Positions 6,753 through 12,135 of a stretch of DNA of 64,000 nt are shown one piece after another. The stretch comes from Propionibacteriaceae bacterium. Lineage in GTDB: Bacteria; Actinomycetota; Actinomycetes; Propionibacteriales; Propionibacteriaceae. A program made the translations under genes and the position numbers. The DNA is taken from positions 186,001 to 250,000 of the forward strand of contig JAISUR010000016.1 of assembly GCA_031271975.1 (NCBI GenBank), written 5' to 3'. The notes under the pieces were generated by a model, which saw only the letters and a program-made list of their open reading frames with translations, was not told the origin of the DNA and ran no database searches. Within the stretch, counting starts at the first letter, position 1. Each line of letters opens with the position of its first letter.

Positions 6753-6758
6753 CATAAT
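6753..6758 (+). promoter_or_regulatory. -10 element of the vapBC module
   Basis: CATAAT ends seven bases before ATG 6766. Because it overlaps the other in-frame ATG (6757), it decides the start in favour of 6766. The preceding bases contain the tandem sequence GGTAGGGCA (6734-6742 and 6746-6754), which could be the antitoxin operator. Confidence 0.45.
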
Positions 6759-6765
6759 GGAGGGC

Positions 6766-6981
6766 ATGAAGAAGACGAGCGTGTACTTGGACGATCGCCG
6801 CGAGCAGGCATTGCGCGAGGTTTCCGGGTTGACGGGAATCTCGCAGGCCGAGTTGATTCGCAGCGGGATCGACCAGGTGATCGAGCAACACTTGCGTCCG
6901 CGGCCCAAGATGCGGGCGCGCGCACATGGCGTGCCCATTGCTTCCCGCGCCGCAGAGTTGATGGAAGGGTTTGGCCGGTGA
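6766..6981 (+). CDS. VapB-like ribbon-helix-helix antitoxin
   Basis: A 71-residue protein beginning MKKTSVYLDDRREQALREVS. The strand TSVYLDD followed by two helices with TGISQAELIRSGIDQVIEQHL is a ribbon-helix-helix DNA-binding fold. The basic tail (RPRPKMRARAHG) is the likely toxin-binding part. The gene ends in GTGA, overlapping the start of the PIN toxin. Such antitoxins neutralise the partner nuclease and repress their own operon. The assignment rests on the fold and on the partner. Confidence 0.8.
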   Translation: MKKTSVYLDDRREQALREVSGLTGISQAELIRSGIDQVIEQHLRPRPKMRARAHGVPIASRAAELMEGFGR

Positions 6982-7430
6982 TCGTCGTCGCGGACACTGG
7001 CGGCATCATCGAGGCTATCGACGACACCGCACCCCGGCACGATGCCTTTCGCGCTGTCTTGGAGCGCCCGGACTTGGATGTGCGCATCACGCCGCTGGTC
7101 ATGACAGAAGTGCACTATTTGCTGTCGGCCGCCGGAGCCCAGGACGTGGCGGCCGCATTCCTCGAAGATGTCACTGCGGGCTTCTATCGGGTGGAATCGC
7201 CGGCTGTGGCGGACCTGTCCAATGCTGCCAGCTTGATCGCGCGGTATCGCACCGCGATGGCGCGGCGGCGTCCCAAACCGGGGGGATTGGATCTGGCAGA
7301 CGCGGTGAACGTCGCCGTGGCGGCCCGTCTGGAGACCAATATCATCATCGCCACCGACCAGGATTATCGCCAGCTCAGCCCGCTGTCCCACCACAAGTAT
7401 TTCTTGCTCTGGCCCGACGATCTCGACTAG
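6978..7430 (+). CDS. VapC-like PIN-domain ribonuclease toxin
   Basis: A 150-residue PIN protein starting at GTG 6978, overlapping the antitoxin stop by four bases. Acidic residues expected in the metal site are present: Asp6 (VVADTGG), Glu44 (LVMTEVHYLL), Asp108 (DLADAVNVA) and Asp127 (ATDQDYR). VapC toxins cleave tRNA or rRNA when the antitoxin is lost. The module is convergent with a second PIN-like module at 7618-8404. It looks intact, and its target cannot be read from the sequence. Confidence 0.82.
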   Translation: MIVVADTGGIIEAIDDTAPRHDAFRAVLERPDLDVRITPLVMTEVHYLLSAAGAQDVAAAFLEDVTAGFYRVESPAVADLSNAASLIARYRTAMARRRPKPGGLDLADAVNVAVAARLETNIIIATDQDYRQLSPLSHHKYFLLWPDDLD

Positions 7431-7566
7431 GTGGACAGCCTGCTGCGTGACGAATGCCTCTATCGCATGCTCAGCGGATCGATTACGGGGATGCCGTGCG
7501 CAGCCGCGACGGTTGACATGTTTCGATCATGTGTTGCCAGCGCGCATCCAGGATCGGTGTGCAACA

Positions 7567-7584
7567 GTAGTACTCACGTACTAC
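7567..7584. terminator. Palindrome between the two toxin-antitoxin modules
   Basis: A perfect inverted repeat GTAGTAC-TCAC-GTACTAC (7-bp arms, 4-base loop) lies in the 187-bp gap between convergent modules, so it could be a bidirectional terminator. No T-run follows. The rest of the gap (7431-7617) holds no convincing gene. A weaker ACATG...CATGT inverted pair lies near 7520. Confidence 0.35.
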
Positions 7585-7617
7585 GCCGGGCAACGGGGCT
7601 TCCTCCACGCCAAGACG

Positions 7618-7992
7618 TCAAGATTCGCCAGGGGCCTGGAGCCACCAAACAAAGCCAGGCAAAACGGCGGATCTCGGCGGATCGTTGGCAAAGGCGATCA
7701 GGGCGCTGGCCAGTCTTGGCAGCGCGTTGACAGACCGCGGAAAGCGCTGGGAGTCACAGTAGATGATTCCGCTGTGGTCTTGGACAGCGGCCATGGCGGC
7801 TGGAAACGTCGTTACGTCAGCGGTGACCACGATCCGGCGTTCGCGCCAGGCGGCCGCCAGGACGTTCGTGTCGGGAGTTCCGCGGAGGTCTTCGCGCGCT
7901 ATGACCGCTTCGGCATCGACTCCGGCTTGTTGCAGGGCGGCGGCCAGCGATGGTGGATAGTGCTCGTCCAGTAAGAATGCAATGTCAGGCAT
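7618..7992 (-). CDS. DUF5615 PIN-like toxin
   Basis: A 124-residue protein starting MPDIAFLLDEHYPPSLAAAL. The LLDEHYPP opening, the GTPDTNVLAAAWRERRIVVTAD core and the later FPRSVNALPRLASALIAF helix match the DUF5615 PIN-like family of type II toxins (putative RNases). Asp9 and Glu10 and the Asp of VVTADV are the likely metal ligands. The start is ATG 7992, because the partner's TGA (7985-7987) overlaps it by eight bases. An ORF start at 8064 would only add out-of-family residues. Activity is inferred from the family. Confidence 0.75.
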   Translation of the reverse strand: MPDIAFLLDEHYPPSLAAALQQAGVDAEAVIAREDLRGTPDTNVLAAAWRERRIVVTADVTTFPAAMAAVQDHSGIIYCDSQRFPRSVNALPRLASALIAFANDPPRSAVLPGFVWWLQAPGES

Positions 7993-8404
7993 ACAGGGAT
8001 TGCCTGCGCTCCCACGCCTCGCGTGCCTGGCGTTGGGCATTGTGGACGCGCTCGACATCTGCATCGATCTCGGCCTTGTTATCTGCCCAATAAGCCAAGG
8101 CGCACTCGACCTCGCGCGCAGTCAATCCGGTGGCGGCCGCGACATTTGCCACGGTGCGGTCGGCCGGCTCGTGCTGCAGCCATGATTCGGCGACCGTCCA
8201 GACTTCGGGGCCTCCGGCCAAGGCCGCGATGCGTTGGCCATGAGGCGTCGACACGAACCGGATGCCAGGGTGCGCCTGCGTCCGCAGCCATTCGTCGAGG
8301 GCGGTATTGACCAAAGTCGACTTGGACCAGCCGCTGGACGCCATGTAGTCCGCCGCGGACTTCTCGATCGGATCGCTGAGGCGAACGCTGATGGCAAGGC
8401 TCAT
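7985..8404 (-). CDS. Antitoxin with ribbon-helix-helix start and DUF433-like tail
   Basis: A 139-residue partner of the DUF5615 toxin. The start MSLAISVRLSDPIEKSAADY has the strand-helix pattern of a ribbon-helix-helix domain with SGWSKSTLVNTALDEWLR as the second helix. The second half (VANVAAATGLTAREVECALAYWADNKAEIDADVE) resembles the helix-turn-helix of DUF433-type antitoxins. The gene overlaps the toxin start, so the pair is coupled. A repeated hexamer just upstream is a likely autoregulatory operator. The family call is moderate, the module call stronger. Confidence 0.7.
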   Translation of the reverse strand: MSLAISVRLSDPIEKSAADYMASSGWSKSTLVNTALDEWLRTQAHPGIRFVSTPHGQRIAALAGGPEVWTVAESWLQHEPADRTVANVAAATGLTAREVECALAYWADNKAEIDADVERVHNAQRQAREAWERRQSLYA

Positions 8405-8411
8405 GTTTACA

Positions 8412-8427
8412 ATGTATCACGATGTAT
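8412..8427 (-). promoter_or_regulatory. Candidate operator of the DUF5615 antitoxin
   Basis: ATGTAT occurs twice (8412-8417 and 8422-8427), exactly ten bases apart, seven bases upstream of the antitoxin ATG. Direct repeats one helical turn apart are typical targets for ribbon-helix-helix dimers. On the minus strand they read ATACAT and could overlap a -10 element. Confidence 0.4.
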
Positions 8428-8543
8428 GCACCATTGGGCTGGTGGGCACCGACCGTGCCGTTGCTGATAGGGATCGGACTCACTCACCCATACTCGACTT
8501 GGGCTTGTGTCAAACTCACATTCGCCAGTGATCGGCGTCAGGA

Positions 8544-8579
8544 CTCAGACCCGGACAAGGCCCTTGTCGGTCTCGAAGG
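8544..8579 (-). repeat. Left copy of a 36-bp direct repeat (duplicated 3' end of a glyoxalase-like gene)
   Basis: These 36 bases match 12149-12184 at 31 positions. The right copy is the last part of the VOC gene. Here the minus strand would read FETDKGLVRV and a stop in the same frame, against FETKKGLVRV in the intact gene. Identity ends abruptly on both sides. It is either an attachment-site duplication or the last remnant of a second VOC gene. Confidence 0.65.
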
Positions 8580-8672
8580 CGCTGCAGGGGGTCTGCTCAC
8601 CTGTGTGCACTGTTCTGGGCCCCCTCCTCACTTTGTCGTGGATGGTTGAATGACCCGCTGTGACAAGGGCAT

Positions 8673-8704
8673 TTGACACTGGGGGGGGGGAATTCCACTA
8701 GTGT
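8673..8704 (+). promoter_or_regulatory. Promoter-like site with a G10 tract between -35 and -10
   Basis: A perfect TTGACA (8673-8678) and a TAGTGT hexamer (8699-8704) are 20 bases apart, and the spacer contains ten consecutive G (8681-8690). Losing two or three G would give the optimal 17-18 bases, so slippage could switch the promoter. The rest of the 332-bp gap 8405-8736 is low-GC, has no convincing gene, and holds the operator and the 36-bp repeat listed separately. Confidence 0.55.
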
Positions 8705-8736
8705 AAAGAAAAATCGCCTATCGAAAGCAGGCTATA

Positions 8737-9177
8737 GTGAAATCCCTCCTCACCAAGATGTTGATTCCCCTTGTCGCAATAGGAAGTCTTGGCATCGGGG
8801 CCAGCGCGGCCTTTGCCTTCTCGGAACACGATGCTGGAGACATGAAGGCCCACGACGCCAAAGCCACGAATCTTAAGTATCACTTCGATGCAGTGTATGA
8901 AAAGCGCGGAAACACGAAGTACTACGGAGTCAAGTGGAAGGGAACTCTGTCAGCTCCCAAGGGTGTGACTGCTGAAGTCAAGCTCCGGTCCGACGCCTAC
9001 CCTTGGGTCTCAGCGGCTTATCTGAAGCCTACCGCAACTACTAGGTCAGTGAAATTTACCAAGAATATGTTCCCTGGCGACACGCTCTACCTGAGTACAT
9101 CGTCCATCCAACTGTGCCACTACGACTATTGGTGGATCCTTGACGATTGTCAGACGGCCAAGTACAAGCGTGGCTAA
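8737..9177 (+). CDS. Small secreted protein of the ABC-transporter island
   Basis: A 146-residue protein with a clear signal peptide (MKSLLTKMLIPLVAIGS, predicted cleavage after AFA at residue 27). The GTG start is preceded by AAAGCAGG. The mature part is rich in Lys, Tyr, Trp and Thr, with alternating strands (NTKYYGVKWKGTLSA, VTAEVKLRSDAYPWVSAAYLK). It has a C-terminal Cys pair (QLCHYDYWWILDDCQ) that could form a disulfide. Base composition is clearly lower in GC than its surroundings. Arrangement with the ABC ATPase and large permease resembles lactococcin-972-type bacteriocin loci, but I cannot place the sequence in that family. Confidence 0.75.
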   Translation: MKSLLTKMLIPLVAIGSLGIGASAAFAFSEHDAGDMKAHDAKATNLKYHFDAVYEKRGNTKYYGVKWKGTLSAPKGVTAEVKLRSDAYPWVSAAYLKPTATTRSVKFTKNMFPGDTLYLSTSSIQLCHYDYWWILDDCQTAKYKRG

Positions 9178-9202
9178 ACTAGACTTGTGACTTCTCCCTT
9201 GG

Positions 9203-9913
9203 GTGCTCTGTTGTGATGTGTCCGTTCCCTTGCTAGTCGCCGAAGGGCTTGAGGTCACCTTCGGTGATCGAAAGGTGTTGGCCGGGGCTTCGCTCCAAAT
9301 CGGCCCGGGTGAACGCCTCGCGATCCGGGGTACGTCCGGCTCTGGCAAGACCACGTTGTTGAGGGTGCTCGCCGGTATTCAGGTTCCCGACGCTGGACGG
9401 CTGCTGTTTGATGGCGAAGTACTTTCCGATTTGTCTGATGACAAGCGCTCCCGGTTACGGCTACGGGAATTTGGCTTCGTATTTCAGTTTGCCGACTTGG
9501 TTCCAGAATTAACGGTCAGTGAAAATATCGCGCTGCCGTTAGAATTTCTCGGAGTCAGGCGACCCGAGCGCAACAAACGCGTGCGTGAACTCATCGCCGC
9601 CATGGAATTGCAGAAGTGTTGTGACCAACTCCCACATTCGGTTTCCGGCGGAGAACGGCAACGGGCAGCCGTAGCCAGAGCCGTGATTCACCGGCCTCGA
9701 CTGTTGTTTGCGGATGAGCCGACTGGATCCCTTGACACCTATTCTCGGGACGGCGCCCTTTCAGTCTTGTCGCATGTCGTGCGACAGTTCGGATGCGCCT
9801 TGATTCTAGTCACGCATGATTCCTATGTGGCGCACACTTGCGAGCGAGCGGTTGAAATGATCGACGGCTGTGTGATGTCGGCGAACAGGTTGAATCCGTG
9901 GTTGCCCGACTAA
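9203..9913 (+). CDS. ABC transporter ATP-binding protein, MacB/LolD type
   Basis: About 236 residues. Walker A GTSGSGKTT starts at residue 43, the Q-loop is FVFQFADLVPELTV, the signature is SVSGGERQRAAVARA, Walker B is LLFADEPTGSLD and the switch is THD. The DEPTGSLD and VSGGERQR forms are typical of ATPases that pair with FtsX-like permeases. The start is uncertain: GTG 9203 and GTG 9218 are both in frame, and neither has a clear ribosome site. The 3' end overlaps the permease start by 16 bases. It is low in GC like its neighbours and is probably energised export or immunity for the secreted protein upstream. Confidence 0.88.
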   Translation: MLCCDVSVPLLVAEGLEVTFGDRKVLAGASLQIGPGERLAIRGTSGSGKTTLLRVLAGIQVPDAGRLLFDGEVLSDLSDDKRSRLRLREFGFVFQFADLVPELTVSENIALPLEFLGVRRPERNKRVRELIAAMELQKCCDQLPHSVSGGERQRAAVARAVIHRPRLLFADEPTGSLDTYSRDGALSVLSHVVRQFGCALILVTHDSYVAHTCERAVEMIDGCVMSANRLNPWLPD

Positions 9914-12135
9914 GTCATTCGGCGACGCTGTGGAAACTGACTGCGCGGGGTCTTTGGGGCGCGGGCGCGCAGGACCGAGTTCGCCTCGCCATCCAGGTGC
10001 TGGCTGTCGCCCTCGCCGTGATCCTCGGTGTCCTGGCATTGAGCATTCCGCAGGCGTTGGAAGCTGGCAAGGAGAGGTTCAGGACTCGGTATCCCGCATA
10101 CACCGACGCTGAGACTGGGCTGGTCTTGGGTGAGACGGACGAGTTGTATCACGGCAAAGTCGTCACCGTGTGGCAAGTTACTGCGGCTGGGGGAGACGTT
10201 CCAACTCCACCTGGTGTGGAAGCCATGCCGGCAGTAGGTCACATGGTTGTGTCGCCTGCCCTCAACGACGCGTTGCTTGGGGACCCAGCTATGCGACTCC
10301 GGTTTCCTGGCGCAGTGGATGGTGTCATTGGCGCACAAGGCCTGACTTCTCCAGACGAACTGCTCGCCCTGGTTGGAGTGCCTGCCGCAGGCGGTACGAA
10401 CGTTGCCGGGTTCGGAGTGTCCCCCACTGCGGTGCAAAGCTTGACGGAGGAATCCGCCCCTGAGTCTTTGGTCTCCGCTGAACTGCTGTTTCTGGTGTTG
10501 TTGCCGCTGCTTGGGTTCCTGGCCGCCGTGTCTCGCATGGCCGCGGGCACGCGGATGACGCGGCTAGGAGCTTTGCGGCTACTGGGCCTCTCGGTTGCCG
10601 ACTGCGCTCGACTGCAAGGGCGGCAACTAGCCATCGTCGCCGCGGTAGGCGCCACAATTGGGTGTTTCGCATATCAACCGTTCTCAGCAAGCCTCGGACT
10701 GAGTGGCGTTACGGGGCTGAGTTGGTTCCCAGAAGACACGCACGTGTGGTGGCCAATCTTGCTCTGCCTCGTTGTTGCTCTCGCATTGGTTGGCCGTCTT
10801 GTGGGCAGGGTGACAACTCGGGGAGCTTTCCTCAATCCATCACGGGCCCGAGTACCGAGAGGTTGGCCACGACTCTTGTTCTGGGGAATGGCATGCCTCT
10901 GTCTCGCGGGCGCAGGCTTGCTAGGTGGCATTTGGGCCGTTGTCGGCCCGCCCAAGCGCTGGTACAACAGCGACGTCCAGAATCCAGTCATGCTGGCGTG
11001 GCTGCTCCTCTCTCTCGTCGTCATGGTGTTCGCCGCAGAGCTGGCTCGCCGCCTCGCGTCCGGGCTGCTGGGCCGAGGGCTGAGGAGTTCCGCAGTGGCA
11101 CTCGGCCTGAGGCTGGCCAGATTCCGGCCACCGGGCAGTGCCGCTGCTCTGCTGAGTGTCAATCTGCTCATCCTCGTGACCGGGTTTTCGACCGCGCTGT
11201 TGAATCACGTTGTCGCCGCAACTTCGGGTGATGGGGAACCTGCTGAAGTGGAGGTGTGGGCCAGTGAGCTTCCAACAGGAGAGAGAACCGCCCTGATTGG
11301 GTTGCTGGAATCTGGTCGGTTCCGAGGCTATGCCGTCGTCGACGGAGTTATCGATGGGAGAGACGATGCGTGGGAAACAGTTCTCGTTGGCACGTGCGAA
11401 GCGCTCTTCCCGTCTGACACGGAATGCGCTGCCGTGGCCAGAGTTCCTGATGACGAAGGCAACCCCCTGCCTGGCCAAGTCGTCACGGTAGAAGTGCCAG
11501 GCAACGAGCCGGTCCACATTGGAGTCCCCGACATCGTGGTTCAGTCAGATGAGATCCGGTATCACGGCGTGCTGTTGGTGCTGGTCACAGATGCTCCTTG
11601 GCTCAAGGACGTGGTGGCCACGCATGTGCAGTTCTTCGTCGATGCGACGGGTGATGAGTATGACCGGTTGTTGGCAGCCTTGGCGGCGAGGTGCCCTTCT
11701 GCCGAGAGCAGCACATCCTTGGGCAGTTCCGGTCGTGAGATCCTGCTCCAGCAGCAGAGCATGCTGCGTCTGTTTTCTACCTTCGGTTTCGTCTTCTGTG
11801 TGTTGACCTTGTGTTTGGCGGGCCTGGGCCTGAGCCAGGATCAGCTTCGATCGATTACGGCGTTGCAACTCGTTGGAGTGTCGCGTTCAAACCTGCGGAA
11901 GGCGATGGCCGTGAGCAAAGCATTTTCTGTCGCCATTTCCACGGTGGGCGTGGTCTGCGTCACCATCTTGGGAGGGCATGCTTGGCCGGCGACTGCTGGT
12001 CTGGGCGCTGACTTGATTCCGGAACTCATTGCGCGCGTGGCGATCTCAGCCATCGTGGCCGTGGGAATGAGCGCCCTGATGGGCGTGCTCTTGGTTCGGC
12101 GTCTCGACCTCGCCCAGCCTGATGCCAGAGTCTGA
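9898..12135 (+). CDS. FtsX-like ABC permease
   Basis: A 745-residue membrane protein starting at GTG 9898 inside the end of the ATPase gene. A first helix at about 30-50 (LAIQVLAVALAVILGVLAL) is followed by an outer domain and then an FtsX module with the conserved loop RMTRLGALRLLGLSVADCARLQ. A middle helical block follows, then a second outer domain, and a second FtsX module near the C-terminus with QLRSITALQLVGVSRSNLRKAM. Two such modules are normal for MacB-class fused permeases. The cysteines at TCEALFPSDTECAAV probably lie outside. It forms a coupled unit with the ATPase. The transported substrate is unknown, and the upstream secreted protein is the best guess. Confidence 0.8.
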   Translation: MVARLSHSATLWKLTARGLWGAGAQDRVRLAIQVLAVALAVILGVLALSIPQALEAGKERFRTRYPAYTDAETGLVLGETDELYHGKVVTVWQVTAAGGDVPTPPGVEAMPAVGHMVVSPALNDALLGDPAMRLRFPGAVDGVIGAQGLTSPDELLALVGVPAAGGTNVAGFGVSPTAVQSLTEESAPESLVSAELLFLVLLPLLGFLAAVSRMAAGTRMTRLGALRLLGLSVADCARLQGRQLAIVAAVGATIGCFAYQPFSASLGLSGVTGLSWFPEDTHVWWPILLCLVVALALVGRLVGRVTTRGAFLNPSRARVPRGWPRLLFWGMACLCLAGAGLLGGIWAVVGPPKRWYNSDVQNPVMLAWLLLSLVVMVFAAELARRLASGLLGRGLRSSAVALGLRLARFRPPGSAAALLSVNLLILVTGFSTALLNHVVAATSGDGEPAEVEVWASELPTGERTALIGLLESGRFRGYAVVDGVIDGRDDAWETVLVGTCEALFPSDTECAAVARVPDDEGNPLPGQVVTVEVPGNEPVHIGVPDIVVQSDEIRYHGVLLVLVTDAPWLKDVVATHVQFFVDATGDEYDRLLAALAARCPSAESSTSLGSSGREILLQQQSMLRLFSTFGFVFCVLTLCLAGLGLSQDQLRSITALQLVGVSRSNLRKAMAVSKAFSVAISTVGVVCVTILGGHAWPATAGLGADLIPELIARVAISAIVAVGMSALMGVLLVRRLDLAQPDARV

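Follow-up and report, generated by a model that had tools for sequence, protein, structure and literature searches.

A G10 tract in the promoter spacer of a small secretion operon of a Propionibacteriaceae bacterium: a probable mutable-spacer promoter and its recurrence before genes for exported proteins

Is a run of ten G residues between the −35 and −10 boxes of a putative promoter a mutable spacer that governs the genes behind it? The run lies in the window, that is, the whole 64-kb stretch of DNA analysed in this study (G000:C16:186001-250000), which belongs to a 2.70-Mb draft genome in 49 contigs. By direct reading of the plus strand, the −35 hexamer TTGACA (8673-8678; 6/6 positions) is followed by a 20-nt spacer (8679-8698) consisting of CT, G10 and AATTCCAC, and then by the −10 element TAGTGT (8699-8704). 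The G10 homopolymer, the proposed mutable tract, occupies positions 8681-8690 and is the only G run longer than six in the window. All of these elements are exactly where the preliminary description had placed them. It had also called the hexamer the best −35 box of the window: the match is indeed perfect, but the hexamer is not unique, as there are 17 copies of TTGACA in the window on the two strands together. The −10 element is a weak one of the TAnnnT type, agreeing with TATAAT at 3/6 positions, and 32 nt separate it from the GTG start codon (8737) of a predicted secreted protein.

Neither a sigma-70-type promoter with a 16-18-nt spacer nor a terminator-like site was found on the plus strand between 7500 and 9800. 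The former result leaves TTGACA-N20-TAGTGT as the only evident promoter candidate for the operon. An in-frame TAA stop codon (8704-8706) lies between the G tract and the start codon of the secreted protein. Thus, a coding role of the tract in the frame of this protein is excluded, and the length of the G run cannot shift this frame. A riboswitch or another RNA element was rejected, since no Rfam family reaches its gathering score in 8400-9300 and the fold of the predicted leader (8711-8790) is unremarkable (z 0.69). An 8-bp palindrome, CACTAGTG, at 8697-8704 overlaps the −10 box and is a possible operator. The vector-like look of GAATTCCACTAGTG was considered and set aside as coincidence, because the site is located inside a 254-kb contig.

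What would such a promoter control? The first gene (8737-9177, plus strand, with the stop codon ending at 9177) encodes a 146-aa protein with a signal peptide-like N-terminus and no Pfam or NCBIfam family above the cut-off. It is followed on the same strand by the gene of an ABC transporter ATPase (9203-9913; LolD, lactococcin-972 exporter or MacB-like; PF00005, 1.4e-32) and by that of a 745-aa FtsX-like permease (9898-12135; PF02687, 6.8e-4, below the curated cut-off), which overlaps the end of the ATPase gene. The ATPase matches TIGR02211 (1.4e-57) and TIGR03608 (2.1e-51) in NCBIfam, both under their cut-offs; it scores 174 bits against TIGR03608, whose cut-off is 255, and the LolD model scores higher, likewise below its cut-off. 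The three genes (8737-12135) would be co-transcribed. The earlier idea of a secreted-protein promoter with adjoining transporter genes is upheld, the homopolymer lying in the spacer of the one evident candidate.

The cargo itself is harder to name. A lactococcin 972 bacteriocin peptide was tried and rejected, as the protein has no Pfam match near the cut-off and no NCBIfam match. An orthologue of PPA1880 of Cutibacterium (Propionibacterium) acnes was rejected as well, because the 146-aa protein has no PT repeats. A function from structure was set aside, since the AlphaFold model is of low confidence (mean pLDDT 56) and its best PDB match (E 0.03) is not significant. A bacteriocin-like or self-protection role is possible. 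Other genes nearby resemble toxin-antitoxin systems: a ribbon-helix-helix protein followed by a PIN-domain protein at 6757-7430, and, on the minus strand at 7618-8404 and divergent from the secretion operon, a DUF5615/PIN-like protein with a small upstream partner of no family.

Promoters with a mutable spacer have a homopolymer of about eight or more residues between the boxes, a spacer near 17-18 nt, so that small changes cross the optimum, and a surface or secreted product; their tracts vary between cells or strains, and transcription follows the tract length. Here, the homopolymer is G10, the spacer is 20 nt in length, and the signal peptide-like N-terminus predicts secretion. In the reading that I prefer, G10 is probably a mutable spacer in the promoter of the operon 8737-12135. 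Slippage at G10 would alter the −35/−10 spacing; the assembled 20-nt spacer would be weak or off, and tracts shorter by two or three G (18 or 17 nt) would be on. The outcome would be a lineage-level or population-level switch for the small secreted protein and the neighbouring ABC/FtsX-type transporter. By the yardstick of PPA1880, the 20-nt spacer is expected to represent the OFF or low state. The link between spacer length and transcription would be the one known from PPA1880 and porA, and I infer the switching at the window locus as well as its rate.

The promoter may be real and the tract static. G10 would then fix a low promoter strength and change on the evolutionary time scale only, which is not phase variation in the usual sense. 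Relatives of the operon bear on this. No match to the secreted protein was found in the 29 other genomes of the genus. In the family set (197 genomes, E 0.01 or better), it has four matches, its own genome included, and the only convincing homologue (38% identity) is in genome G194. G194 has homologues of all three genes in identical order, preceded by TTGACA-N19-TAGCCT, and the longest G stretch in this spacer is G5. Conservation of the operon thus does not extend to the long tract. As far as the two sequences can tell, the box pair is kept in G194, which counts for the promoter, and the long tract is not, which speaks for a static tract. The boxes are not in register in an automatic alignment of the G194 and window upstream regions, so the equivalence of the G194 boxes rests on position and motif. 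The permease has matches in 4/30 genus genomes, own included, and the best non-self match (G024) is apparently truncated by a contig end.

Long homopolymers are generally unstable, which argues against a static tract. According to the accessible text of Scholz 2016 (PMC4746626), 54 variable tracts are known from 90 C. acnes genomes and their lengths follow clades, suggesting slow accumulation of changes rather than active switching. Against this stands PPA1880, whose tract lengths vary between strains together with secretion, in the accessible part of Holland 2010 (PMC3224659). Duplicated promoters with unequal tracts also count against a static tract: in one Clostridia MAG, paralogous promoters carry G12, G10 and G10, and the flanks of the G12/G10 pair are 82% (upstream) and 93% (downstream) identical. 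Another length difference was found between two MAG contigs, L238 and L252, which are alike over about 4.57 kb save for one substitution and one 3-base indel. The indel lies in a poly-G spacer (19 vs 16 nt), and the surplus consists of GGA rather than of G alone. Just beyond the 4.57 kb, BLAST shows the contigs to differ in length once more, by about 54 bases that are probably a repeat, after which they match up to 5.19 kb. The two contigs are filed under Clostridia and Spirochaetaceae, and at least one of these labels is probably wrong. The L238/L252 and Clostridia MAG cases bear on the promoter class in other phyla and not on the window locus. Altogether, a static tract is an unlikely explanation.

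Could the G run have come to lie near an unrelated TTGACA by chance, with the true promoter elsewhere? The 17 copies of TTGACA and the weak −10 element would allow it. By a first-order Markov model, 64 kb should contain about 0.2 runs of ten or more G, so G10 alone is only mildly surprising. The whole 2.7-Mb genome has five G runs of nine or longer, and about 47 are expected on both strands by my own arithmetic, in which the Markov values of the window are extrapolated to the genome. Thus, long G runs are scarce in this genome. Two of the five are flanked by TTGAC[A/G] and TAnnnT and precede genes whose products have predicted signal peptides. The second site (contig 45, L017 4302-4311, minus strand) reads TTGACG, four bases, G10, AAAC and TACCGT; its spacer is 18 nt, and 38 bases lie between TACCGT and the ATG. 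The product, 1417 aa long, starts with a signal peptide-like sequence and carries alpha-galactosidase, F5/8-type, FIVAR and Ig-like domains. The remaining three runs lie where the sequence is G-rich or repetitive, and one is close to the end of a contig.

The full layout, TTGACAN{2,9}G9N{0,8}TANNNT, was found in 3/394 genomes of an even sample of the class (own, G096 and G897), and the reversed pattern in none. The layout is therefore rare across most of the class, and a chance origin of the combination is unlikely by these sequence counts. Together with the second copy in the same genome and the lack of another plus-strand promoter in 7500-9800, this rarity makes a chance neighbourhood quite improbable, even though a TTGACA-like box is missing at many G≥9 tracts of the relatives. 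The layout extends beyond the window, to the second site in the same genome and to further sites in relatives.

How often does the mutable-spacer layout recur in the relatives? The pattern TTGACNN{0,9}G8 was found in 4/30 genus genomes at 8 distinct sites by my own count, with one match of the reversed control. Its G9 version was found in 21/198 family genomes at 32 distinct sites (own count), some of them coding, in repeats or at contig ends; the reversed control has 5 matches in 4 genomes. G≥9 tracts of 11 family genomes were then taken irrespective of a box. They amount to 131 rows, of which 112 were analysed (G178, 11/22; G184, 18/22; G188, 7/9; G176, 7/8; G186, 19/20; the other six complete), and 91 remain after 21 tracts close to stretch ends were dropped. 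A TTGACA-like box (5/6 or better) lies 0-9 nt upstream of 19/91 tracts. The reversed hexamer gives 5 matches and the mirrored downstream side also 5, and beyond 0-9 nt upstream, the box counts per ten nt drop to the control level. A perfect TTGACA stands beside 12/91 tracts, one of which (G026) is in a coding sequence. No TTGACA-like box accompanies 72/91 tracts, so long G runs form in the absence of such promoters as well.

The −10 side and the products were compared for 26 distinct TTGACA-type tracts drawn from all whole-genome loci, a set from which sites with short flanks were removed and which retains the coding tract L039/L021 (G026) and the doubtful L178/L185. TAnnnT starts 0-9 nt past the tract 20 times at these 26 tracts (at least once at 19/26, never at 7/26) and 6 times at 76 tracts without a −35 box. 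Eight of the 20 are directly at the tract end, and the local background is about 2.8 per ten positions. By my own crude hydrophobicity rule, which was used in all counts of this kind, signal peptide-like products follow 15/26 TTGACA-type tracts vs 10/83 control tracts (Fisher p 7e-6), or 15/25 vs 45/242 gene-like ORFs in the same kind of loci (p 2e-5). G188 has three such tracts, each before a different secreted protein; two of these proteins have signal peptides that resemble each other. The spacers are 19 and 22 nt, and the third tract lacks a clear TAnnnT. In G024, the promoters of two paralogous secreted proteins have spacers of 16 nt (G8) and 20 nt (G10). In G184, such tracts precede a small secreted protein, a lipoprotein-like WG-repeat protein and an ABC transporter. 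As judged by eye, ABC transporter genes are at or beside the tract at 4/18 loci (window, L066, L073 and L079), and a lipoprotein-like second gene occurs at 5/18 loci (L037, L067, L069, L078 and L081).

Some tracts of the relatives are of other kinds. The G11 of L039 (420-444; G026) falls within the part of a gene that encodes the signal peptide of a large repeat protein; as assembled, it is out of frame with the remainder, and it is a candidate coding-type contingency locus in the genus. The G10 of L034 (G010:C24) is inside the reading frame, in frame as assembled, of a gene that I take to be polyphosphate kinase-like. In L075, L068, L174 and L070, a long G run beside TTGAC stands at the contig end or no more than about 40 bases from it. 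Assemblies seem to break there, so the counts may be lower bounds.

Outside the family, TTGACANN{0,8}G9 was found in 12/396 genomes of an even sample of the phylum, own included, and reversed in 1/396. Five products of the 11 other loci pass the signal-peptide rule, and that of L176 is also signal-like by eye; one further stretch ends at the tract, and the others have no signal-like product. A pan-bacterial scan with TTGACAN{5,12}G9TANNTT gave at least 118 stretches from many phyla, mostly MAGs; the matches listed are in an order that is unknown and have no reversed control of their own. At the 121 sites among the matches listed, spacer lengths from 14 to 21 nt occur 14, 16, 11, 17, 31, 20, 9 and 3 times, which differs from a uniform distribution (chi-square p 4e-5). 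These sites are not independent, falling into 91 assemblies or near-identical groups by my own grouping. One Alphaproteobacteria MAG, Emb289P3bin118, holds 12 of the 121 listed sites (WQWV01 contigs L218, L230, L256, L262, L264, L272, L285, L290, L300 and L305). Each has G9, the spacer is 18 nt at 10 of the 12, and this genome is thus rich in promoters of the kind. The 18-19-nt peak of the 121 sites is thus inflated. With one site per assembly (91, matches listed), the numbers for 14 to 21 nt are 10, 9, 9, 14, 18, 20, 9 and 2; the peak at 18-19 nt persists but is weaker (p 0.005). Signal peptide-like products lie downstream at 65/106 of the listed sites and at 51/82 with one site per assembly, against 109/424 for gene-like ORFs of the same stretches (p 1e-11 and 6e-10, respectively).

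A small RNA of Helicobacter reportedly uses a G repeat as its RNA target, and the tract might likewise act other than by spacing, as a regulator site, a DNA structure or an RNA target in a longer transcript; the palindrome over the −10 box would suit the first of these, but the −10-like elements mostly just past the tract at TTGACA-type sites and the 18-19-nt peak among the pan-bacterial matches listed fit spacing, and with no Rfam family around the tract and no unusual fold in the predicted leader, this alternative is very improbable.

For the mutable spacer, then, sequence comparison establishes the anatomy of the site, its non-randomness and its recurrence before genes for exported proteins. 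A broader proposal stands at about even odds in my estimation. Poly-G spacer promoters would form a widespread class that precedes exported proteins more often than other genes, in Actinomycetota (Propionibacteriaceae and other lineages), uncultured Spirochaetes, Bacilli, Clostridia, Planctomycetes, Acidobacteria and others, with several at once in some genomes. The window would hold one of the two such switches of its genome, with control over a small secreted protein and the ABC/FtsX transporter that belongs to it; the operon may serve antagonism or self-protection. The recurrence before exported-protein genes, across an actinobacterial family and well beyond, is more interesting than the single locus. 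With the present analysis, one odd tract becomes a switch that can be tested and whose state is predicted. Should the tracts vary in length, some of the secreted and surface proteins of uncultured bacteria would be on in part of a species and off in the rest, and this mixture could be read directly from metagenome reads at the tracts.

Is a promoter of this kind new? The porA and fetA promoters of Neisseria have a poly-G/C spacer whose length sets the transcription of a surface product. They drive Gram-negative outer-membrane proteins and their length effect was measured, whereas that of the window locus is one that I infer. Lactococcin 972-type operons consist of genes for a small secreted protein, an ABC ATPase and a membrane protein. 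The gene layout of the window operon is alike, but its secreted protein matches no family and its model has no significant fold match.

No survey of poly-G promoter spacers across bacteria was found in the accessible text of the open PMC literature, the C. acnes papers PMC6560440 and PMC3772855 included. Homopolymers in coding genes are the subject of the accessible part of Orsi 2010 (PMC2831843). In Bifidobacterium breve, replication slippage at G tracts is described in the available portion of PMC9187656; the tracts under study there are in the coding sequence of pilus genes, unlike the spacer tract of the window, and promoter-spacer tracts are also mentioned. The available text of Scholz 2016 (PMC4746626) places HPT_37 of C. 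acnes, upstream of PPA1943, between the −10 and −35 boxes, which makes it another actinobacterial homopolymer of this position, with a two-fold expression difference. Unlike the window tract, it is short (C5/C7), precedes an enzyme gene, and was compared in two strains from different clades. With PPA1880, HPT_37 and the B. breve promoter-spacer tracts as precedents in the accessible sources, the earlier remark that such spacers are seldom described in high-GC actinobacteria has to be corrected.

The closest precedent is PPA1880. The accessible text of Holland 2010 (PMC3224659) describes a G stretch in its putative promoter, with 11, 13 or 15 G in different strains and spacers of 18, 20 and 23 nt, and secretion in the strain with the 18-nt spacer only; the authors offer the alternative that the tract is coding. 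At two loci of the present study, L074 (G089) and L075 (G094), the same TTGACAAAATCGC box stands before G14 and G15, respectively, and PT repeats and LPHTG are present in the protein of L074. By this resemblance, I take them to be the PPA1880 locus or a close relative. As far as the accessible text goes, PPA1880 differs from the window locus in its product, a PT-repeat protein rather than a 146-aa protein without PT repeats, and in that tract lengths of several strains were set beside secretion, whereas the window locus is known from one length. On the same footing, the two share a G run in the −35/−10 spacer, a secreted product and apparently the same family, and the 20-nt spacer assembled here is one of the states observed at PPA1880. 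My verdict is that the window locus is probably a mutable-spacer promoter of the porA/PPA1880 type, a kind already known.
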